DNA of 43,490 bases from a virus. Under the pieces are notes generated by a model, which was not told where the DNA came from, made no database searches, and saw only the letters and a list, made by a program, of their open reading frames with translations. The stretch lies in the IMG/VR virus record IMGVR_UViG_3300029268_001171, positions 1-43,490 of that record. One strand, written 5' to 3'. Below, one piece after another: positions 13,976 through 29,400 of this stretch (its first letter is position 1; each line of letters begins with the position of its first letter). Both the position numbers and the translations under genes were made by a program.

Positions 13976-14050
13976 TGGTTGCGGGAGGCGGACTCGAACC
14001 GCCGACCTCCGGGTTATGGGCCCGGCGCGCTACCGCTGCGCTACCCCGCG
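13976..14050 (-). tRNA. tRNA with CAU anticodon, initiator (fMet)-like
   Basis: The minus strand reads CGCGGGGT at the 5' end and CTCCCGCAACCA at the 3' end, so CCA is encoded. C1 faces A72 unpaired, as in bacterial initiator tRNAs, and G2-C71 to G7-U66 form the rest of the acceptor stem. The anticodon stem-loop is CCGGG CCCATAA CCCGG, with the three G-C pairs of initiators and anticodon CAU. The D-stem has C11-G24, which is elongator-like, whereas most initiators have a purine at 11. The T-arm GGCGG TTCGAGT CCGCC is normal. It has its own promoter and lies between the portal gene and the zincin gene. Elongator tRNA-Met or tRNA-Ile2 are less likely alternatives. Confidence 0.9.
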
Positions 14051-14108: not shown

Positions 14109-14450
14109 TCACGGCACCGGGATCCAGCGGGCGTAGCGCCAGAGGACCATGCGGGAGATTTCCTCGCTCGGCTCGTCCCAGATCCCGCACCGCCGCATTT
14201 CTGCGCGGGCAAAAGCGTCTGCCTCCCACTCGACCCAGAGGCGGGCAATCCGTCGCACCCAGAGCAGGAAACAAGTGACCTCCCAAAACCGGTAGGCGAT
14301 CGTGAGCGTCCGGTGTTGCCGGGCGTGCGCCCACTCGTGGACGGCGACATAGCACGGGGCGTTGGGGTCGAGGTGGATCTTCCTCGTGCGCGGGTCGTAG
14401 TGCGAGCCGCGGACAGTCTCCCAAACCAAGTGGCGTTCTTTTCGGCTCAT
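14109..14450 (-). CDS. small zinc metallopeptidase-like protein, 113 aa
   Basis: The motif VAVHEWAHARQH (residues about 36-47) is an HExxH zinc site. Further on, WVEWEADAFARAEM (about 70-83) supplies the E-x-x-A-D/E-A-D-x-F-A block that gives the third ligand in gluzincin-type and 'Zn_peptidase_2'-like proteins. A hydrophobic segment (RFWEVTCFLLWVRRIARLWV) lies between them and could be a membrane-associated helix. The ATG overlaps the stop of the giant gene (ATGA), so the two are translationally coupled. The protein may process the giant polypeptide or another virion protein, or attack a host barrier; these are inferences. With only 113 residues it has little beyond the zinc core. Confidence 0.65.
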   Translation of the reverse strand: MSRKERHLVWETVRGSHYDPRTRKIHLDPNAPCYVAVHEWAHARQHRTLTIAYRFWEVTCFLLWVRRIARLWVEWEADAFARAEMRRCGIWDEPSEEISRMVLWRYARWIPVP

Positions 14451-17400
14451 GGGAACATGCGCTTGCGGGTCATCGTGCGGGCGTCCTCGAAGGCTTTTCG
14501 AATGGTGTCCACGTCATCGATCTTGGGTTTTGCGATCTTGGCGGCGGTGAGTTTGCCTTTCAGGATCGCGCTGGCAAAGCGTCCGGAGGCGACACTGAAC
14601 CGGTGGTATTGTTCGGCGGTCATCTTGTGCTCCTTGCCTGCGCGCTGGTAGGTGTCTGCCGGGGCCTGGGGAGCATAGGCTTGCGAGGGGTTCTCCCGGT
14701 TCCAGTTGAGAAGCAGGCGGTCGGCGGACTCGAGTTGCGCGTCGGCTTTGAGCGGGGTGGTGAGGAAAAGCCGGAGCACCGGGTTTCCGCCCTTTTGCAT
14801 GTCCTTCCCGTAGATGGTGGTCTTTGGCGGCGCGAAGTCTCCCGAGGGCAGGGCTTGATACATGGCCTCCGCGTGCTTGGTGTCGCGCACGTAGTCATCG
14901 AGGTTGCGAAGCGGCTGGCGGATGATGTTGGGAACGATCGCCTGCATGAGAAACCGCTTGGTTCCCTCGCCGACGTTCGCGCTTCCCTCCAAGGCTCTTG
15001 AAATGTCGGAGAATCCCTGCAGGAACGTCTTGGATTGCGCCTGCGCCATGAGGTAGCCGTAGAGCGCATCCATGTTGTCTGCCGTGGCGCCTTTGCTCTT
15101 GATCGCGCGGATCGTGTCGATGGTGGTTCCCAGCACCGTGGCGAGCGGCTCGTAGCGACCGTAGTGAAAGGTCCACCCATTGCGGCCGCCAATGCGGATG
15201 ACATAATCCCCGCCGTAGGCGCGCTGCTGGAGTTCGCGCTGGCCCCGGCTGATCAAGTTGTAGGGCATCGATCCGGTAATGAGCACCGGCTTGTCATCGT
15301 CGTCCCCGTCGCCTTGGGCCGCTCCCCAAAGCAGGGCGAGCGCGGTCCAGGCAATGAGCTGCTCGGAGACATCGCGCACGGCCTCGGGGTGGGTCGTGAG
15401 GTAGGGTTGCCCGTTTTTCAGTCCCATAAGTCCTCGCCCGACCTGCCATGCCAGATTTGCCGATCCCAGCGGGGTTTTGCGGATCCCCATGCGGAAAATG
15501 TTGTAGGGAGTGCGGACGAACGGAAAAAACAGCCCCAGAAGCCGGTTGCTGCCGCGCATGGTCTGAATCTTGGCCGCGAGGTCCTCGACCATGTTCCCGC
15601 CCTCTTCGCTTTCCCGCAAATCCTGCTGGAAGGTCAGTTCCTTGGATTTTTCCACCGCCCGCTGCCATGCGGCGTCGCTCCAACCGGCCTCGCGGGCCAT
15701 GTCGAAGGCGGTTTGCTCCCGGGCCATCTCCCATGCCTGGCTGGACCGGTCGGCAATGAGATCGTCGGATTTTAGGGTTTCATCCTTCTGAGCGAGCGCC
15801 TTGGCGAAAAATTCGACCATCTCGGCGGATGGCCGGGCCTTGGCGATATTCCCCGCAATCACCTGATCCCGGGTCTGGGAAAGCAGGGCAACGCGATCGG
15901 TAAGTTTCTTTCCAGAAAGCCCTTCGGACTTGGCAATGCGGTAGGCAACCGCCCCCACTTCGACCTGTCCGATGGCCGTCTTAAAGAACGAATCCGCGAA
16001 AAGGAGTGCCCGGCCCGGCACCCGGACCAGCCGGCCCAGCTTGCCGGGGATGGCGGACCGGACGTTTCCGGCCTTGTCGAAATTGTCGATCTCCATCGGG
16101 GTTCCAAGCACCGTGTGCTCAAAAAAGTCGTGTTCGGCGCTCCAAGCGCGTGCGACCATGGAGAGCCCCTTGGCCATTCCGGGGAGGAGCCCTTTTGCCA
16201 AAAAGCGGAATTCTCCGAGCCGGGCGGCCTTGCTGTCGCGGATCACCAGGTTGACCGTCGCCTCCATGCCGCGCTGCACGGTCATATCCCATGCGGCGTT
16301 GACCGTGTTGCCCGCGATATTCACGAATTGGGTTTGTGGCCCGGAGAGGATGTTCATGATCCACCACTCGTAGGCCATATCGAGCACGTTCGCCCGGGTG
16401 GCCGCCTGGATGGCTCGTGCCATTCGCATGACATGGGCGGGATCCTCAATGTTGAACCTTGGCCGACCCTGCTTCGCATCGTCCACGATCCCCAGCACCC
16501 CAAGCCATTTTGAGAATTCCCGCTCGGCAGTGGCATCATCGACGGTCTTCCCGGTAATCAGGGTGGCAGAGTCCGCCTTTGCCCCGGCCTGGAACTTGGC
16601 AAAATGCTGGGCGCGCATCTTGGCGATGAAATCGGTTTTGATCTGCTTGACCTCGGATTCGCTGATTCCCGCGGCCTTGGCGATGTCGGAAAAGGAACGG
16701 TTGCGCAAGATCATCCGGAAAGCCCGCTGGCGGCTCTCCTTGTCTCCGGCGGCGCGGGCAAGGAGTTGAACGAACTCCTCGATGATGTTGCGGTTTTGCA
16801 GGGAGAGCGTCACCCGATCCTTGAGGATGTCATCCACGTTGATCCCGGAGGCCTTGAGTTTTTCCAGCAGCGCCTTGGTCTCGGCGTCAATGATGGCGGT
16901 TTTCTCTGCCGGCGTGGCCGCTGCGTCGATCGCCTTCTGTGCCGCGGGCCGTGGTTTCAAAATCAAATCGGTGAGGAAATCCCGGTAGCGTTGCGCCGGG
17001 GTCTTGAGCGGATCCCGCCGGCTGGCCAGCGCGCGGCCCGCTGCCGTGCCGGTTCCCCGGAATGCCAGCCAAAAGACGTTGAAAGCGGCCCGGCTCTCCG
17101 GCGTTCCGGTTTTCAGCATCGCGTTGCGCAGGTCGGTGGCGATTTTTTCCGCGGCCTTTGTCTGCGCCGGAGAGATCGTCTGCCCGCCCAGACCCGCGCG
17201 CTCGATCGCCAGCTTCGTCCCGGCGTAGTCGCTGGCCAGCATGTTATCGGCTTCAAGCTGCCATTGTGTCTCCGACTGTGGGGAGAAATGGTCGGTGTAG
17301 TATTGGTCGGCTCCCCGCACGTCGGCATTGTCGGCCCCGTGGGCAAGGTCCGGCCGCCCGATCGTCTTGCGCCCCCCGGCGTCTTCCTCAACCAGCGCGG

Positions 17401-20400
17401 CAGCCTGGTAGTCGGGGATCTCGGAATCCAGGTCGCGCAAGAGCGCGTCGATGTCGGAAAAATCCTCTTCGGCAGAGGAATTAGTCTCTTCGGCTCCACG
17501 GGCAAAAAGAGCCTGGTTTTCAGAAAGGGAAATTTCCCCGCCCGGATGGTCAAGCAAATGCACTTTTCCCGAGGCATCGGTAAAGAGAGCGCGGGCCTGC
17601 GGGGTGCGCGGAAGCATCCAATAGGCGCGGCCCGGGTGCGAGGCATAGGCGGAATCGATTTCGCGAATGGTTTTCTGGAATTCCTTTGTGGCAATCTCTT
17701 GCGCGAGGGCAAAGTCCGTCGCGTTCGCCTTGTAGTCGCTCCGGTAAATCGGAAGCTGGCTATTTGTGACAGCAATGCTGCGCTCCCGTTCTCCTCCGGT
17801 TGTCTGGAAGAAATCGGCGAGTCTGGCTACTCCCCATTCTCGGGCTGGAGCGTAGGAGATTCCTTGGAAGGCTCTTTCCGCCGGTATGCCGTAGGGTCCG
17901 CCGTAAGCCTGTGCGCTTTTATCGGGCGAGGGATGCCATGGGGATTGCGTTTGCGATCCTTTTCCAGTTTGCGCCACTGGTTTTCCGGCGTCGTGTGGTA
18001 AGGGGCGGGATATTCCATTTGATTGCCCATACGAATCTCCTGGCGTTTCGTCAACCTGATACCCGCGCGCCATGAGTTGAAGCGTCGAGTTCAACCCGCG
18101 TTCCCCCAGATTTTTCCGCATGATTCGCAGGGCGGCTTTCAATACCTGCTCTGCCCTCTGCTTGCTGAGCCCGCCCATATCCTGCCCGATTTGTTCAAGC
18201 GTCTTGTGCTCGCTGAATCCCTGAATGGCGATCTGCATTTGGGGGGTCAAAGCGGAGATACTTTTATCCAAAACCCTCCTGCTCTCCCTCAAAGCGGCGG
18301 CGTCGGGAGCGGCAAGCGTGCGGGTGTCTGCGGCGAAATCTCCCCGTGTTTCGGAATCCGGGTCATCCGTCCTCGGTTCATCGAGAGAAACCGGAAACAG
18401 GCTGCGCCGGGTATCTTCCTTGCGGTAGAGCGAGCGGAGGCGGTTGCGCACAGAAACCCCGGCATAGGCGGAAAACGGCTTCCCAAGCGTCCCGTCGAAC
18501 TTCCGCGCGCTATCGGCGAGGGCCAGCCGGGCAACCTGCCGGATTTCCTCCTGGTCCACCCCGGGGATGTTGTTCCATGCGGAGGCGATGCGCATCGCCT
18601 GCGGGAGTTCCGCCTTGAACCGATCGAGCGGATACAACTCGGCGTCGGCCTGCGCCGCGGGGCGGTCCTCGGGGATCGAGTCGAAGTCGAAAAGCTCCTG
18701 ATTCGGGTCGTAGGTGGTCTTGCGCGCCTGGAGTTGTTGCGGTGTGTGGGCTCGCTGGTGGCGCTCGTCGGCATAGAGGGCCTCGGTCTCCACCCGTTCT
18801 TGTGAGAGCGTGTCGTATTCCTCTTGATACGGCCATGCTGCCGTTTCGGACATTCCGGCCAGTTGGCGCAAGCGTTCGGAATTCATGGCCTGGCCGCGCC
18901 CGAGAGATTCCACCGTGTCCACAAGCTCCTCCAATCGGGAAAGAAGCGTTCCCGGGCTGGTCACGACTCCAAAGCTCAAATCGTTCTCTGCGTCGGCGGC
19001 GCCGGTCACCAGGTCGAATGTCACCGCGCTCCGCTGCACCATGCGCTTGGCGTCCTCGTCCCATTCGTTGTCCACCTTCACGGTGGGGTGCAGGAAAATG
19101 GGCGTCCCGTTGACAGTGATCGAGGTCACGGGCGGGGAGATCTGGCGACCGTCGGCGCTCAGTCGCAGGGATCCGCGCGAGGCATCCAGCGCGGCCTTGA
19201 CGGCCTCGGCGGTGGCCGCTTTGGTCTCGAATGTCTCCCCGTCCACGGCCAGCACGATCCCCTTCTCGGCGATACCGGCGGCGAGGCGCCGCATCTTCTC
19301 GACAGAGGGAGCGAGGCGGGCAATGCGCTCGTCGTAGATTCGCAGGTGGTTTTGCGCGTTGGAAATCTCGGATTTCCGTCGATCGGCCTCCATTTCGTGC
19401 GCGTAGCGGGACATGCGCAGTTCGTCGAGCCGGGTGTTGATCTCCCAGAGCCGGCGACCGTATCTCCCGGAGAGCACGGCCCGCTGTTCCTGCAGGTTGA
19501 GGCTGGTTTTGTCCTCGGCCAGCTCGCGGCCCTTGATCTTGCCGGAAAGCGCGGCGTAGGCAAACCGCTGCTTGGTCTCAAGCTTTTGCCAGAGGGCGGC
19601 ATCCAGCGTGTCCTCCATGCCATAGCGCAGGAGTTCAATATCAACCCCCATCTCGCCGTGGACGTTTCCCTGGCGGAAAACCCGACCGTCGCGCTGCTCG
19701 AGTTCCGCCGGCGTCCATGGCACGTCCAGATGGTGGGCCGCGATCATGCGTTGCTGCATGTTCACTCCGGTTCCGAGTTTCTTCGTGGACCCGATGATGA
19801 CGCGGATCTTCCCCTCGTTCACCATGTCGAAAAGCGCCAGCTTCTTTTTATCGTTGTTCCATTTGGAATCCGTGATGACGGCGATTTCTTCCGCCGGGAT
19901 CCCTTGGGCGATCAGCTTTTCGCGGATGTCGTCGTAGAGGTTGAACGTCGTCCCCGGTCCTTTTTCGGGATCCAGCTCAATGTCAAGGCTTGAGGGTGTG
20001 ACGGCATCAAAGAGCGTGATTTTCTGTTGGTTGAAGGAATCGGCGAAAATCACCTGTGTGCCCTTGTAGGCGTCGGTGTCGTGGTAAAGGTCCATCAGAC
20101 GGCCAATCATGCGGTTGACCTTGCTGCCGGGTTCATCCTTGGCGCGGGGTTCGATCAGGCGGATGTCGATTGCGGCCGCCCGGCTCGCCATGAACGCCTG
20201 CACGGGCACGGCCCCAAGGCTGGGATTCTCGGCAATGTCCTTCCCGTCGAGTTGGGAATAATCATCCAGAACTCCGCGGATGTAGCGCACCCACTCGGCC
20301 ACGCCATTGCTTCTGGGCACCGCCACGAGTTCCGGGGCGCCGCCTTTGATTCCCGGGCGGTTCTTTACAACAAGGTCGTCTCCCAGTTTCACGTCGGCAG

Positions 20401-23400
20401 CCTGTCGCAAAAACGTGGCCCACTCGGGCAGGTTTACAAACCGGGAAAGCCGGTCCACGTTCTTGAAATCCCCATTGGCTCCCATCTCGCTCTCGGTGGT
20501 GACCACGGCAAATTTGCTCACAAACTGGTCGAAAAGTTCCACCTTGTAATCCCGCAGGACGTTCGGTGCCACCAGGCGGATCATATTCCAGATTTCCCCC
20601 AGCGTGTTTGTCACCGGAGTGCCGGTCATGGAAAAGACGTTTTTTCCACCCATCTGCGCCTGAATCTGCCGGGCGCGCATGAGCAGCGCGTATCCCTTTG
20701 CGCTCATGCCCCCGTCGATCCCCTTCGCCTCAAGCTGGGTGGAGAAGGGCATCTTCTTGAACTCGTGCACCTCGTCCACAATGAGGGCATCCACCCCGAG
20801 CTGTTGGAAATTGAGGAGCCCGGTATCGGTCCGGCGCTTCTTGGCCGAGTCAATGCGGCCTTCGAGTTTTTCGATTTGCTTGACCAGGGCCTTGACCGTC
20901 GGGGGCTTCCGGCGGTCCTCCTTGGCGTCAGCCACACTGTCGTAACCTTTCTCCTTCAACGTGGCCATGGCCTCGTCCACCAGCGCGCGGGAATGTTTGA
21001 TCTCCACCTCGGGATCATCCTCGATGAGACCAAACGTGGAATGGGCGATGACAACGGCATCCCAGTCGCCGGCGGCGATGCGCATCAAGAATTCTTTGCG
21101 CTTGGGTCCGCCCAGCTCGTCCTTGCGCCCGACCAGCACCCGGGCGGTCGGCGCCATCTTGGCGATTTCCTTTGCAAAGCCTTCCAGCGTGGCGTTGTGA
21201 ACCACGATCATGGGCTTGCGCGCCATTCCCAGCCGGCGCATTTCCAGAGCAATGCCGCTGCCGATGATCGTCTTGCCCCCGCCCACACCGTGCGCGATGA
21301 GCCCGAATCCCTCCTGGATCGCCCGCCAAATCGTGTTCTTCTTGTCGGGGTAGATGTTGAAATCCTTGTTCGCCCATGGGAAGGCGAGAAATTGCCCGTC
21401 GTAGGTGCGCTGGACGTGGGAGTTGACTTCCTGATTGTAAACCTCGGCAAGTTCGGCGGCGACATCCTCGGTTCCCCTCACCCAGGAAATGAATTTTTCC
21501 CCCAGCAGTTTCGCCCTTTCGCGCGCGGCGGTGGTGGCTGCCTGGTCGATCCCCCCTCCCTCTTTCTCGCTCTTGGTGATCGTGATGGCCTTGAGATTGA
21601 GCAGGGAATCCATGATCCCCTCGATCGGGGCGGAGGTCGTCTCGTAATCCTTGTATTCCACCCCGCTCTTGGAGTTGCGCTTGTCCCGGACCATCTCCCA
21701 CTCGCTGCGCTCGTTCTCGGTCTTGTAAACGAACCGGTAGCCGGAGACTCCCAGGCTTTCCAGGAATCGGTTGTAAATGTCCGCCGGGATCCATGTCGCC
21801 CCGACCGAAAACCGGATGTCCTCGATGCCGACACGCTGGGGCTGAATGGATTCCAGCATCCGCACATTGCGGGCGTAGTCCGGGCCCGCGGACTGCGCGA
21901 TGATCAGCTTTTTGCGCACGTTGCCCGAAAGGTATTGCTCGCGGGAGAACAGGCGCCCGGTTTCCGGATCCCGCACGGCGATCTCCTGCACAAGCAGGGC
22001 GTTCTCGACTTGCTCGGGGGTCTGTCCCAGCAGGTCGGCCATAAACCGGGAATCCACGGAATTGCGCCAGCCGAGGGAAATCCCAAAGGCATCTTCCAGG
22101 GTGTCCGCCTTGGTCGGCTCGCTGCGCGGCTCGAGCACGCGCTTGGTGAAGATGTCGGCCTTGACGTATTCCTTCTTCTGTCCCTTTTTCGCCCATTCCA
22201 GAATGGCGGACGTGCCCTTGTTGGCCGCTTTTTCCACCTCGGCCCCCAGCAGGCGGAAGTAATCCGGGTCATCGATGAAAAGGGCCTTGTTCCGGCGGTC
22301 GTGGAACTCGGCGAATTTCGCCTTGAAGGCGTCGTAATTCTGGTTGAGCTGGCGGCGGTTGTCTTCGATCTCCTCCGCGCTCGCCGTATCGGAGAGTTCC
22401 AAGTCGTATTGCCGGTTCAGGGCGTCGCGCACGTCGAGGAACCGGGAGACCCGCGGGGCATTCTTCGGGGCGTTGAGATCGGCATCGGGTTCGTCGTGGC
22501 CTTGGAAGTAATATTTCCCGTCCCGGTAAACGATGTTGCCCATTTTGACAACGGAAGCGCCGTTTCGCACCGGGCCGCTCTCCTCCACTTCTCCCATGAT
22601 CCCCTGTGGGATGGTGGCAAGGTCCTGCTGCATCGCCACCGAGGGCGGGCGGTTGGAATCGCCATGGACGGTCATTTCCTCTTTCTCCCCATACATGGAC
22701 CCGTCGTTGTCGAGCAGGCCGAGGATATTCTTGGGATTGGCCGCGAAGTATTCGTTGATCCGGATGTCCGCTCCCTTCTGGGTTTTGGCGTCTCCAAGGG
22801 TCGTCCACGCCTGGGCGTGCGGGAAGGGTTTCCCGTCCTTTTTCCGTAATACAATAATGTCGGTCACCACGTCGGTGCCGGCATTGTCCTTGAAGGCGTC
22901 GTTGGGCAGCCGGTAGGCGGCTACCAGGTCGGCGCGTTCGGAGAGCCATTTGCGGATCTCGGGGTTTCCCTTGTCCATTGTGAACGCGCTGGTGATGAAG
23001 ATTTGCACCCCGCCGGGTTTGAGCTTGGTCAGCGCCTTGCCAAAAAAGTAGTCATGCAGGTTGCTCACGGGTCCGCCCATCGCCTCAAGCGCCTTGTCGG
23101 CAACCGGGATGTTGGCAAACGGCACGTTCGAGATGGCGAGATCAATCGAGTTGTCGGCGATGTCGGCTTTCTGGAACCCGATGTTCTGGATATCGGCCTC
23201 GGGATAGAGCGCCTTGAGAATCTTTGAGGTGTAGGAGTCGAGTTCCACTCCAAAGAGTTTGCTGCGATCGGCAATCTCCTCGGGCATGAGTCCGAAAAAG
23301 TGTCCGATTCCCGCGCCCGGTTCCAAGACATTCCCGCCTTTGAATCCCATCCATTTCGCAATGTCCCACATGGAAGCGATGATTTGCGGGCTGGTGTAGT

Positions 23401-26400
23401 GGGCGTTGATCGTGCTGCGCTTGGCCGCCCGGTATTCCTCCTCGTTGAGAAGGGATTTCAGCTCCGCGTGGGCCTCGCCCCATTGGTTTTTCCAGTTTTC
23501 GAGGGATTGGGCGGCCGCAAGCTGGCTTTCGGCCTCGCTGCGGTAGTAATCGCTGTCCCCGTAGCTGCGGGTGCGCTCTGCCGTGCGCCGGCGGGTTTCA
23601 ATCTCTCCATTCTCCACGCGGTCTGCCTTGTCGTCGTCGAACGCCTGCGAGAGTGCGCCCCAGCCGGAAAATTTCACAAGCGCCTGTTTTTCCTCTGCCG
23701 TGGCCAGCCGGCCCTCGGACTCCATGGCCTTGATGATGCGCAAGGCTTCCAGGTTCGCCCGCAGTTTGCTCACGGTGCCCCGCGGGGCAAGCGCCTGATC
23801 GCGCGAAAGGGTGATGTTGCGAGCGGGATCCCCGACGGGCGGGCGCTGGGTGGTTACTCCTGAACCCGGTTGAGCAATGACATTGCTCTTTTTTGCAGGT
23901 CGGGGGGAAGCGGATCGTCCGCCCTTTCCTCCCAGTCCTCCGGATACGGGAAGAGTTCCTTGAGGGCTTCCGTCTCCTCCCGGTCGTCGAGTTTCATCGC
24001 CTTCACGAGTTGGAGCGCCTTCTGGTCCATCCACTCCAAGAACTCCTCCTCCGGCCCCTCGAGTCGTTCCTGAATCTCGCTCGGCGTCGCGCTGGCCAGC
24101 CAGGACTGAAAACAGGTCTCCCATTCCTCCGTCCGGCGGACGTTCTTGCGTTCTTCCGGCGTGAAGTTTCCGAGCAGGATTCGCTGCTCCTCGGGTGAGA
24201 GTTTGGTTTTCATTTTGTGGCTCCTGGTTGCTGATACGTTTGGGATCTCCATTCGTCAAGGGGCTCCCGAAAAGATCGAGTGCGACCGGGGCGGACACCC
24301 CAAGGTCGGACATGGCGGCGGCGGCTTTTGCCGATGGTGCGGAGATCCCCTCCCCTTGGAGCGCCTTGTCATAGGCGGCGATCTCCGGGGCGGAAAAGGC
24401 AAAGAGGTCGCCGGTCTGGTCGTCTTTGCTGGCGCGGCGGGCCTGCAACTGCACAGCTGGCGGGATATAGCCGTGAACGACGGCGGTTTTCTCCCACATG
24501 GGAAGGTCAGCCGATTGGATGACCCGATGGTAAATCTGTGCGAGGCGGCGTTTGGCCTCGGCTTCGGGGAGGTTCCTTAGTGAACCTTCGGGAGTTTGTC
24601 CCCGTGCTTGGCCTTCCACTCGGCCTTCGCGCGGTCGAAGTGGGCTTGCCTCTCCTGTTCGGTTTGGCCCGCCGGCCCGGTCGGTCTTAGCTTCTTGGTC
24701 TCGTTGGTTTTCATCCTCTAAGCTACCATACGCACTAGACATCAAATCGTCAACGCCTTTTGACCTATAAATGTGATCAATATGGCCTTCGTTGGTAATA
24801 ACCTCGAAGGGATATTTGTCTCCAAATTCGCGATAGAGTCTTAGGAAAACTTTTTGCGCCTCATAGTGCGCCTGGCCGAGGGAATCCTTGTCGAGCGGGC
24901 GTCCGATGTCCCGCAGTCTTTGGATGGCTGCCTCGGAAGCGTTTTGAAACGGGCGATAGACGAAGGTCAAATGAGGAGTCAGCCCGGCTGCCTCAACCTC
25001 CCCAATCATCCTCACCGCCCGGTCATAGTTTCCAAGGACTGTATCCATGAAAATGGCGGTCCGACGCTTGTCGTCATCGTCATACGTCTTGTGAACGGAA
25101 GTCGTCTTCCCGCTGGCCATCCCGCCGGCCATGAAAACCACTGTTCCACGCTTTGAGGGATCGGTGTTTTTGAGCCAGTGATCCCATGCCAGACGGGAGG
25201 TGATGTAGCCAGCCGGTGCCAGCGTGGCCCGGTCTATGGCGGGACGAAGGTCTTTGTTGTCGCGGTAGAGCGGGTAAACATCCCGGGCGAGGTCGGCATT
25301 GAGGTAGCGGCCTTCGGCTTCCTCTCCAAAGTCCTCTTTGGCAAGGGCGGTATATTTCCCAAGGGACTCCTCGGGGGATTTGGAAATTTGCGCGGCAAAG
25401 TGGGCTTCGATCGTGCGCTCGTATCGAGTGAGCCTGGGCGATGGCATAAAGCCGGGGAGCCCGGGATATCCGTTGGCGGCATCGGCCTCGACCGCTGCGC
25501 GAAACGCCTCGGGGAGTCCGTTCCATGCCCCCTGCACCGAGCGTTCGAGTTTTTTGCGCGAGGGATGATCGGCAGGAACGTTGGTTTCCTGCGGCAACGC
25601 TTGAGCAAGGATGTCTTCCGCGGCCTGGCGGCTCGGGCTGTCCACCGGCCTGCGCGCCATGAGCTGCATTTGTTCGACCGGGGCCCGGGGGATCCCGATG
25701 CGCACAAGTTGCGTTTCCAATTGGAAGTTGTCCGATAGCGCTTGGTCAAAGAACCCCATGAACTCCTGCCCGCTGGTCTTTTCAAGCTGGGTGAGTTCCG
25801 CGCTCTCCCAGCGGGTGAGGCTCTCGCCTTGGCGCTTGCGCTGCAGGTCCCGGATCCGGCGCGATCGGTTGAAACCCGTTCCCCGGGATTGGAGTTGGGG
25901 GGAGATCGATGAAACCTTGCGGAAGTGGGCTTCGATGGCTGCGTTGAGCGTCTCGGCCATGGTGGGGGCAGATCCCAGCAGATCGGCCTCACCTGTGAAA
26001 TGTTCCACGCCGCTGGCGAGGTCGGAGAGCAAGTCATCGAATCCGGCAGAGGTCTCGTCGGCATCCACAGAAAAGATGCCTTTTTTGTTCTTCGGAAGGA
26101 ATTCGACCTTCGAAGCGAGCGCGGAGGCGATGGCCTGGATAACCGGACCGTCCTCCCCGATTTCCTGTTGTTCGGCAGCCTGGGAAATCGCCAAGTTGAG
26201 CTTGCGTCCGTTCCGGGCATATTCGCTCACGCGCTCGAGTGTGCGCCCGATGGCGTCGGCAATGTTGCCGTGGCCTTTTGAGCGGAGTTGCAAGGCTGTG
26301 CCCGTCGCGCTCTTGATCAAGCTGGCGATCGTGGCGTGTCCACTCGACCATTGCGCGGAGGTGACAAACTCCCCGAGGGCCTTGCTGCGGAATGCGGCGG

Positions 26401-29400
26401 CAATCAGGAGGCGTTGAATGTAAAATTGCGACTGCGCGGGATTTTTTACCAGACCGGCGACCAGGTTGCGATCGATGCCGAGTTTCTCGGAATCGCGCAC
26501 AAGCCCGACCATGACGTCGCGCGCGGACTCGGGGGAGAGGGAAAGCGGGATGTCGAGCAGGCGTTCGACGGGGATATTCAGCGCGGCGTCGATGTCGGCC
26601 CGGGCGGCGGTGTCCTGCACAACGCCCTGATTGGGGTTGAGCTTATCGACAAGCTGCTGGTATTCCCGATTGCGCGCCTCGTCCCGCAGGTCATAGACCC
26701 CAAGGAAGCGATACCCGCGCCACCCATCTGGCATGTCTGAGAGTCCGAACTGAGCCCCACGGGCGGACCATGCGTCCGAGAGTCGTTCCTGATCCGCAAG
26801 GGGAGCGAGGTTGACTCCCTGTTCCCGGCCATTCCCGCCGGCGGTTTGCAGGGAAACGCGCAAGGCACCGGTGGAATCGTTGAAAATGGCGAGAACGACC
26901 TGGGCCGGGCCGTCGGATGCGCTCTTGGCGTCGGTGACTACGGAATCTTCATCCAGCGCGCCGGCCCGAGCCATCGATAGAACTTTGTTTTGCTCGGTCT
27001 CGTCGCTGTGGTAGGGCCGGGTATTCTCCCCTCCGTAGAGGGGGTTTTTGTGGAAGTCGGTCCCGGCATGGCTGGCCTGCACGGTTCCCGGAGCGGCCGC
27101 CACATAGCTGGCGGGCAGGCGTTCCCGGTTCGCCCCCAGAACGTAGGTGGAGCTTCCCATTTGCACTTGGGTGAGCACGTCGGCGACAAGGGCCCGCGCG
27201 TCTTGTGGAACCTTGGAAAGAATGGCCTCTTTGCTTCCGCTGGCCTCGGCCCGGCGCTGCACCGCGAGATTGCGGCGTTCAAGCGCACGCTCTGCCGCGG
27301 CGTCGCGGTCGGATTTTTCGGCCTCTAATTGAGCCAGTCGCGCGTCCCTCGCTGCATTCGCGGGCGCACCAGTTGATCCAGCAGGAACTCTTGGACCACC
27401 CGGCGCCGGAGTTCCTGCCTCCATCGTTCCCCCGGTATCTCCTCCTCCATGGCCGCCATGACCGCGTTGATTTCCTCCTCTGCCTTCGCTTCCTCCTGCG
27501 GGCTGAGGGGTTCCGGTGGCCGCGGCATCAGTTGGAGTTCTCCCTGCATATTGCGCCTCATACGCGGCACGTCGGGAATTGTCAGCCGCTTTTTGAAAGT
27601 TCCTGAAAATTTTTACCGATTCTTTCCTCGCCTGGTCGATTCGACCCAGCAAATCGTCGATTTCCTCCTTGGGGCGTCCCTCTTTGGTGAGCTGGGCAGA
27701 GAGCGTGCTGCGGATCTCCCCAAAGGCGGCGAGCAACTTTCGGAAAACCTCCCGCAGGCGTTCCACCAAATCGGGGGACATCGTTTGCTCGGTGAGAACC
27801 ACGCCGTCGGCTGTGGTGAATTTCCCGTCGGCAATCGCGATGTCGTGTTGGAGAAACATCCGGAAAAATTCCATGCCGAGCACCCCGGGGGCTTCCAGGA
27901 GTTCTTTTCCCCGGATGGCCCGCACATGGTCCTGAACCTCTTTGGGCAGGTCGCCAAAAATCTCTCCGGCCTCGGCCAGCGCGGAATCAAAGGCGTCTCC
28001 GGCTTCCCCCGTGCGGGAGGAGCGGATTTTTGCCAATGCCGTGATGTTGGCGAGGTGGGAAATTTCCTCGTTGACCGTGCGCTCTGCCCCGGCGTCGTCC
28101 TGCAGGCTGCGAAGTGTCGAGGCGCTGAGAAGGTCGCCAACATTGAAGTTGAACGTCATCCCCTGGCTGACTCCAACTCCTCCCCCTCCCTTTTTTCCCA
28201 TGTTTGCCGCGATCTCGCGGACCGCTCCGGCGTAGGTCAGCAGTTCGGGGGCAATCCGGAGACGGATGATATGGTCCAGGCGCGCCCGCTTCTCCGAGGG
28301 AAGCGCGACGTATTCGGCTCCCAGGTCGGAAACCACCTTCGCGTGGATCGCTTCGATCTCCGGCTGTTGGGATTTGCTGCTGGAAAAAATCGCCTTGCGG
28401 ATGGCCGTCGGGTTGGTGCGTCCCCCGGCTTTCTCGAATTCCGCCACGGCTGCATCGATTTTTCCCGCTCCCCATGCGGTGGTGCCTTCGCGGCGCACAA
28501 AGTAATCCGCATAGTCCTTGGCCGTTGAGGCATCGATCCCGGTTCCCGCCAACCGCGCCTGCAATTGCTTGGACGCGCCTTTTTCCTTCGGCGTGACCAA
28601 GGGGCCAAACTTCCCGACGGGCAAAGGAGGGAGGTCTGTTCCACGCGAAACATTCAAATCGCCTTCCGGCGTTGTTATTCCGGCTTGCCCAGTCGAATCT
28701 TGAGTTTGCGGGCGATTCGCGCCACTTGCCGGCGGGTTGCTCCCTGTTTGATCTGTCGGCGTCCCTGATTGTTGTGGTGTCTCCGGTTCTTCATTTTTTT
28801 GAAGGAGTTCGCCGCGCAGGCTTTCCTCGTCGCGAATGGCAAGTTCTGCGGACATCGGGGCGACCTGCTGCAGGCGCGAAAGCTGTCCCTTGGTGATGAC
28901 AGGAACCCCGCCCACGTCTTCCATGCGGGGGGATTTGTCGGGCAATTTGCTCTCCAGGGCGGTCCGTTCCTCAGCCAGCAGGCTTTCCATGGGCCGCCCG
29001 GAAATGAGTTTGATCGCTCCACTGGCTGCAAGTCGCTCGGTTTGCGCCCCCTCGGGCGAAAGCCCGGCGGGCGGCTGCCAGTTGTCGATCTGGACCTTTA
29101 CCGCGGCAACCTGCTCGGGCAGGATCGCGGGAGCTGCGGGTTTGGCCGGGGTGGCTTTGGGAAGGCTGTCTGCAATTCCCATCGGGGCGAACATCGCGCC
29201 TCCGGCGGCTCCGGCAACGATGTTTTGCCCGAGTCCTTTGGTGAGAGTTTTCCCTGAAAAATCTCCGCTGATCGAGGAGGTATTGAGGTTGGAAAGGATC
29301 TGTTGCTGGCCTTCCTGCAACCCTTCGAATCCCGACTTGACCGCGCCATCGGTGAGGATCTTTGCTCCCAGCGCCAGTTTCGGACGGGAACCGGAAAATT

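Follow-up and report, generated by a model that had tools for sequence, protein, structure and literature searches.

Small genes nested in a single phase beneath the linkers of a giant, cysteine-free DarB-like phage gene

Introduction

How can one very long reading frame stay open across DNA that already appears to encode several ordinary small proteins? The question is raised by IMG/VR virus record IMGVR_UViG_3300029268_001171, the whole 43,490-base stretch of which (here called the window) also holds portal-, terminase- and replicative-helicase-like genes and is therefore taken to be a tailed-phage fragment. Its minus strand carries a single uninterrupted frame of 5,884 codons (17.7 kb; 14447-32101), the 5,884-aa product of which matches the DarB-like group PHROG 10089 (E=0) and displays the traits of that class—a fusion of methylase with SNF2 helicase, and a single polypeptide that combines several domains with dissimilar activities. 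An earlier note on this DNA had singled out five small open reading frames (ORFs), here e1 to e5, lying inside the giant gene at the junctions between its modules, and had proposed that separate module genes and small spacer genes were fused by opening one frame while the small genes were kept. In this report, we find evidence that four of the five (e2 to e5) are genes, from codon usage, conservation in relatives and, for e4, a confident predicted fold, and that the giant frame has been kept open over them. The elements concerned are as follows.

14447 to 32101, minus strand: giant gene for a DarB-like polyvalent protein without cysteine (open frame, zero Cys, PHROG 10089)
18803 to 23869, minus strand: conserved core, N6-methylase plus SNF2-type helicase (Pfam and PHROGs matches)
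28675 to 28794, minus strand: e1, a 39-codon +1 ORF, unsupported as a gene (fails the codon-usage scan)
27325 to 27561, minus strand: e2, nested +1 gene of 74-78 aa (codon-usage score; homologues at the same junction)
24577 to 24714, minus strand: e3, nested +1 ORF of 45 aa, adjoining a Zeta-toxin-like module (codon-usage score; homologue in L002/L023)
23854 to 24213, minus strand: e4, nested +1 gene for an acidic, helical protein of 119 aa, ending at the start of the core (relatives, codon usage, AlphaFold2)
17827 to 18030, minus strand: e5, nested +1 gene of 67 aa with an alternative start, MEYP, at 18018 (codon-usage score; conserved motif)

Results

All five ORFs begin with ATG and lie in the +1 frame relative to the giant gene, and, as the earlier note had described, their products look like ordinary proteins while the giant frame over the same DNA gives an odd, low-complexity reading rich in Gly, Arg, Pro and Ser. 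Its estimate that about ten stops would be expected there by chance, at an assumed guanine-plus-cytosine (GC) content of about 62%, has the right order of magnitude: with the five small proteins kept constant and the codon usage of the window's phage applied, the giant frame of the window alone would be expected to contain 8.2 stops. GC content at the first, second and third codon positions of the giant gene is 64, 45 and 73%, its shadow frames meet a stop only once per 60-68 codons, and its +1 frame holds 33 ATG-started ORFs of at least 30 aa, mostly Arg/Ser/Pro-rich shadow sequence. Because composition makes shadow ORFs this abundant, each shadow frame was scored for codon usage against synonymous shuffles of the same gene, a scan that requires no homology. 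In the window's giant gene, only e2, e3, e4 and e5 rise above the null maximum of 13.3 (with scores of 28.0, 16.5, 44.1 and 14.0, respectively), and nothing does so in the +2 frame; across all the giants there are 36 significant segments in +1 versus 1 in +2, most of them ending at the start of the core. The reading of the small ORFs as genes thus holds for e2 to e5, on codon usage and relatives, and finds no support for e1, which has no codon-usage signal, no homologue and no good Shine-Dalgarno (SD) sequence, and the position of which is taken in L023/L007 (L numbers designate the loci compared) by a different, unrelated Lys-rich +1 ORF. For e1, we accept the explanation of a chance shadow ORF.

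The highest score belongs to e4, which all close relatives (L006, L007, L008, L009, L010/L011, L013, L014/L037 and L023) carry in nested form directly upstream of the core, with 33-53% identity. The protein has an isoelectric point (pI) of 4.55, and an AlphaFold2 model based on nine sequences is all helical, with a predicted local distance difference test (pLDDT) score of 88.7 and a predicted template modeling (pTM) score of 0.81. No significant fold match was found for e4 in the PDB or BFVD. A profile search for the core led to 37 loci. Nearly every distant locus has a small +1 ORF of ordinary composition just upstream of the core, most of these forming one recognizable family with the pattern L..L....P.....L...G.L...L. 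In L034, the nested ORF scores above the gathering score of the Pfam family TnpV (41 bits vs 27); a model of this TnpV-like type (pLDDT 88.1, pTM 0.71) has a helix order similar to that of e4 and no significant match in BFVD, where the best hit, below significance, is Q8W6J4, a 1,093-residue piece that may come from Sinorhizobium phage PBC5. Acidity is general, with a pI below 6 in 37 of the 40 small proteins at the e4 position. SD-like complementarity is likewise enriched at the starts of these ORFs (Kolmogorov-Smirnov p=5e-6, 40 loci), and in the window three short elements accompany the nested genes.

24221 to 24225, minus strand: AGGAG, SD-like, 7 nt before the ATG of e4 (from the sequence; duplex energy -6.6)
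18037 to 18041, minus strand: AGGAG, 5 nt before the e5 ATG at 18030 (from the sequence)
24107 to 24121, minus strand: GDLFS in the giant frame, over part of WETCFQSW of e4, a spot constrained in both frames (Leu 9/9 and Phe 8/9 beyond resampling)

The openness of the giant frame was assessed by fixing each small protein and redrawing its synonymous codons from the element's own usage. Over the e4-position ORFs of 40 loci, the giant frame contains 0 stops, with 204 expected, and 0 Cys, with 61 expected; over e2, e3 and e5 in a clade of four phages, it contains 0 stops versus 26.7 expected and 0 Cys versus 8.8 expected. Stand-alone homologues of the phage type, in Variovorax (L059) and in a Marinimicrobia metagenome-assembled genome (L058), provide a natural control, for in them the equivalent frame is closed, with 1 and 3 stops and 1 and 2 Cys. 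The giant frame is thus kept open over the small ORFs, with stops and Cys alike excluded from it. Since the giants are wholly or nearly Cys-free (0 Cys over 18,008 residues in those of the window, L001 and L002, and 0-8 in relatives), the exclusion of Cys from the linkers suggests that these belong to the same translated protein. The stand-alone Variovorax copy begins at the equivalent ATG, with an SD. In that genome (Variovorax sp. WS11, L059 5320-8322), methyltransferase and helicase are encoded by separate genes: the DNA methyltransferase gene adjoins the small gene in divergent orientation, and the helicase gene is close by.

Substitution rates point to the frame that dominates. The small frame is the better conserved, since in the overlaps its third position, corresponding to giant position 1, accumulates substitutions fastest, and for e4 and e2 its second position, corresponding to giant position 3, does so slowest; in the core, used as a control, substitutions are fastest at giant position 3, the opposite of the overlaps. 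The small frame is hence the dominant one. Constraint acts on the giant frame as well: synonymous resampling of e4 over 36 pairs leaves a giant-frame similarity beyond what the small protein forces, with a mean z score of 3.0, and although the z of the closest pairs is inflated by shared ancestry, the signal persists between very different genomes (L010-L013, z 4.4). The fixed columns fall in the giant-frame stretch GDLFS...AERDS (Leu 9/9, Phe 8/9, Glu 8/9 and Arg 9/9), which shares its DNA with the most conserved part of e4, WETCFxSWL. Two features expected of a functional nested gene are found here, a small frame conserved with its own codon pattern and an outer frame that is open and constrained; the codon usage of the small frame is native, and both frames are conserved.

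As for the remaining nested genes, the junction that holds e2 (27325-27549, 74 aa; alternative ATG start at 27561) also carries a nested homologue in L023, L006 and L007; e3 is 59% identical over 44 aa to a nested ORF of L002/L023; and e5 is recognized by the motif MEYPxPYH..RNPxxIPxP, which is kept in L023, L006 and L007. The collection scan found neither e2 nor e5 outside L006, L007 and L023, and both are known only in embedded form. A GCGTATG/CGTATG-like sequence around the first ATG is common to the starts of e2, e3 and e5 in several phages (in the window at 27550-27575, 24710-24735 and 18025-18045).

The same organization recurs among phages and plasmids. In IMG/VR, two relatives have giants of 5,832 and 6,292 aa that are open throughout and show the same +1 nesting (e2, e3, e4 and e5 in L002/L023; e4 in L001/L009). 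Nine more viral contigs have the same arrangement at the e4 position, one of them being the same contig as the bacterial-genome match L057. The small ORF is present, unannotated, in the isolate phages Atu_ph08 (an Agrobacterium phage, L043), Itty13, VvAW1, PEp14, SopranoGao, BcepIL02, USP_25 and Y7 (Pseudoalteromonas phage vB_PalP_Y7, L079), because gene callers avoid overlaps, and it is also found in plasmids of Arthrobacter, Corynebacterium, Campylobacter and Parabacteroides, which span several bacterial phyla. A search of genome contigs with the core found no relative, and tblastn gave no match with e4 in phages or with the Itty13-type small protein in plasmids, because single sequences are too divergent. 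Other +1 nested ORFs of ordinary composition, unrelated to e1 to e5 as far as seen, lie in L008 (5952-6278), L012 (8433-8624), L039 (16488-16619) and L040 (15774-15830). In Sinorhizobium phage PBC5 (L044), the N-terminal module shares its frame with the small ORF rather than with the core, so that the giant is annotated as two genes, which may reflect either a natural frameshift or a sequencing error.

Discussion

We consider it highly likely that the small proteins are made by internal initiation while the giant is translated through the same DNA as linker. The giant gene would then be one translated, polyprotein-like cistron with dual-coding linkers between its modules: e2 to e5, in the +1 frame, would each be translated independently from their own ATG, and a ribosome making the giant would read the nested-gene DNA as a flexible, hydrophilic, cysteine-free and disordered linker. 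Internal initiation is suggested by the pattern of starts and SD-like sequences. The e4-position gene would have accompanied the methylase-helicase core for a long time in a locked phase, and nesting would yield both proteins from one mRNA and prevent recombination from separating the pair.

Several points weigh against this interpretation. A good SD is absent at several nested starts (L023, L006, L007 and L010), and the starts were picked by eye, the codon picked in L040 not being a valid start. Related to one another, and hence not phylogenetically independent, the 40 loci were also gathered by their core, so the probability product of 10 to the -91 is no true p-value. Comparison of the e4 profile with the TnpV-like profile gives P=0.005 in hhalign with a probability of only 7%, and homology is suggestive at most. 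No such ORF is found in P1 darB, in plasmids of Enterococcus, Rhizobium, Rhodoferax and Aeromonas, or in a Streptococcus suis element, and the small gene is therefore not essential to the core everywhere; at the start of the P1 methylase, we looked for a nested ORF of normal protein composition and found none. Finally, both the translation of the small ORFs and the partner role considered below are predictions from sequence.

What the e4 protein might do is a more tentative matter. Its position before the methylase-helicase in phages and plasmids, its small size and its acidity suggest a partner or chaperone, and the likeliest role, although we give it less than even odds, is that e4 keeps the methylase-helicase inert or competent for delivery until it is packaged into the head or exported through a secretion channel. 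It would then act as Ulx does with DarB of P1, although it is not homologous to Ulx, or as VirE1 does with VirE2. A broader scenario, which we offer with similar reserve, is that the cores have kept a fixed-phase nested companion since before the phage and plasmid forms of these genes parted, this companion being a delivery chaperone or inhibitor of the protein that surrounds it, and that the giants would repeatedly have added linkers by reading through small genes in one phase, which would give flexible, Cys-poor linkers.

The supported nested ORFs are all in +1, so that the outer frame is -1 to the small gene, its codons starting with the wobble base followed by a first-position base. When the small genes are resampled, this outer reading is expected to contain fewer Cys than the other shadow frame (61 vs 171) and fewer order-promoting residues (16% vs 25%); the +1 phase may thus have been favored since it suits a flexible linker in a Cys-avoiding protein, and shared ancestry is a further reason for the constant phase of the e4-position family. 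The e4-position overlap is already present in short core genes (Arthrobacter, Corynebacterium, Campylobacter and L027), in which the frame is open across the entire small ORF. These short versions start upstream with a real-looking N terminus, e.g., MARRKSLNPNQISIFDFL or MAPRKSKNHIEGQLSLESLW, with motifs such as QISIFDF and GQLSLESLW before the small ORF, and only ~20-50 residues precede the small ORF in them and in the plasmids, which indicates that nesting at the e4 position is older than the giant fusion. In the Arthrobacter record, the annotated core gene begins only after the small gene, so that the upstream N terminus is missed.

Late fusion of a run of module genes and small spacer genes by the opening of one frame—the history told in the earlier note—is on this evidence rather unlikely, although it concerns the origin of the arrangement and not its present use. 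It would account for the location of the small genes at module junctions, for the unusual composition of the linker reading, which is therefore probably the younger of the two, and for the existence of related small genes that stand alone. Against it speak the overlap in short, unfused versions, the fact that e2 and e5 are seen only embedded and our failure to find, among the related loci compared, any in which the modules are split by these small genes. That part of the earlier proposal is accordingly not supported as told; the opening of a larger frame across an older small gene remains plausible at the e4 position, because a related small gene is found stand-alone.

An improbable alternative to internal initiation is programmed +1 frameshifting, by which some ribosomes would slip into the small frame and stop, the small domain becoming the C-terminal tail of shorter proteins. 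This would explain the uniform +1 phase, and PBC5, in which the N-terminal module and the small ORF share one frame, could be read in its favor; PBC5, however, is an old record in which an indel or a sequencing error explains the frame equally well. Moreover, Met starts occur at a consistent place with SD enrichment, the +1 frame ahead of the start stays open for only 14 codons in the median, leaving little room for a shared slippery site, and the equivalent Met and SD of the stand-alone Variovorax copy favor internal initiation over frameshifting.

Much less probable still is that the small ORFs are real while the giant frame is not read through, the modules being separate proteins and the open frame incidental. 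The better conservation of the small frame and the resemblance of the linkers to shadow sequence would fit such a reading, which fails to account for the missing stops and Cys, for giant-frame residues conserved beyond the level that e4 forces, for the lack of an obvious start in the module after e2 or for the stops and Cys that stand-alone copies, free of constraint, do carry in that frame. In addition, DarB-like giants are annotated at ~4,000-5,000 aa, and the 4,515-aa protein of JC1 was found in virions by mass spectrometry (PMC9144972). That the +1 ORFs are mere shadows cast by a GC-rich gene, without function of their own, is scarcely credible for e2 to e5, which are set apart by native codon usage, small-frame conservation, stand-alone homologues of related type and, for e4, a confident fold, even though such ORFs are numerous in the giant gene and the explanation fits e1 and the Arg/Ser/Pro-rich ones.

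Compared with known systems, the giant resembles the DarB-like polyvalent proteins (PMC5512222) in its methylase-SNF2 helicase dyad, further domains, very large size and carriage by phages and plasmids. It differs from the account of these given by Iyer et al. 2017 (PMC5512222) in its nested linker genes and near-absence of Cys, neither of which is mentioned there. Carriage in the virion and delivery with DNA are expected of this class; presence in virions is seen for the DarB-like protein of JC1, and the giant of the window's phage may behave likewise. The TnpV family (PF14198) is close in that it takes in the nested ORF of L034 and has a helical pattern similar to that predicted for e4, whereas e4 of the window has no match to it at E<=0.1; no description of TnpV nesting within another gene was found in the literature searched. 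P1 Ulx, listed as "Aids DarB localization" (PMC9024508), is likewise a small protein encoded beside a methylase-helicase gene, but ulx is a separate, non-overlapping gene downstream of darB, and homology between e4 and Ulx was not detectable (hhalign E 0.14 and 0.2). Genes nested in other genes are already known, Rz1 within Rz being two proteins from one DNA stretch in different frames (PMC9144972); unlike that pair, the present case has several nested genes in one giant gene, a uniform phase and an outer frame that serves as linker. In the literature searched, which was mostly open-access, we found no description of overlapping genes in DarB or polyvalent genes or of cysteine-free injected proteins.

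If both readings are functional, the e4 position would represent a long-lived and widely spread case of dual coding; the isolate-phage records checked lack the small gene. The arrangement suggests a route by which very large multi-domain proteins acquire linkers, makes e4 a candidate partner for the methylase-helicase antirestriction proteins, which are little understood, and offers an experimental handle, as a nested start codon can be silenced without altering the large protein.

Additional features of the locus

The core matches SNF2, ResIII, Helicase_C and methylase families in Pfam and aligns to relatives with 65-74% identity. Further modules lie on either side of it.

24764 to 25069, minus strand: Zeta-toxin-like P-loop module, before the core (Pfam PF06414, E=8e-8)
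18413 to 18619, minus strand: sigma-70 region-2-like module, after the core and before the e5 linker (Pfam PF04542, E=4e-5; PHROG 351 sigma factor, E=3e-12)

A helix-turn-helix-like module directly precedes the e5 linker, just before 18030, and a tRNA-Met gene (13976-14050, minus strand) lies directly downstream of the stop of the giant gene. The scarcity of cysteine in the giants may reflect unfolded passage through the portal or tail; P1 DarB has 9 Cys. In many giants, sliding-clamp-like motifs (x-L-D-L-F) occur in the giant frame ahead of the methylase-helicase core, and these may tether the giant protein to the replication clamp. Examples are ALDLF, GDLFS, QISIFDF and QELSLFDF, found in the window at 24269-24283 and 24107-24121 and in the N-terminal regions of L048, L050 and L055.

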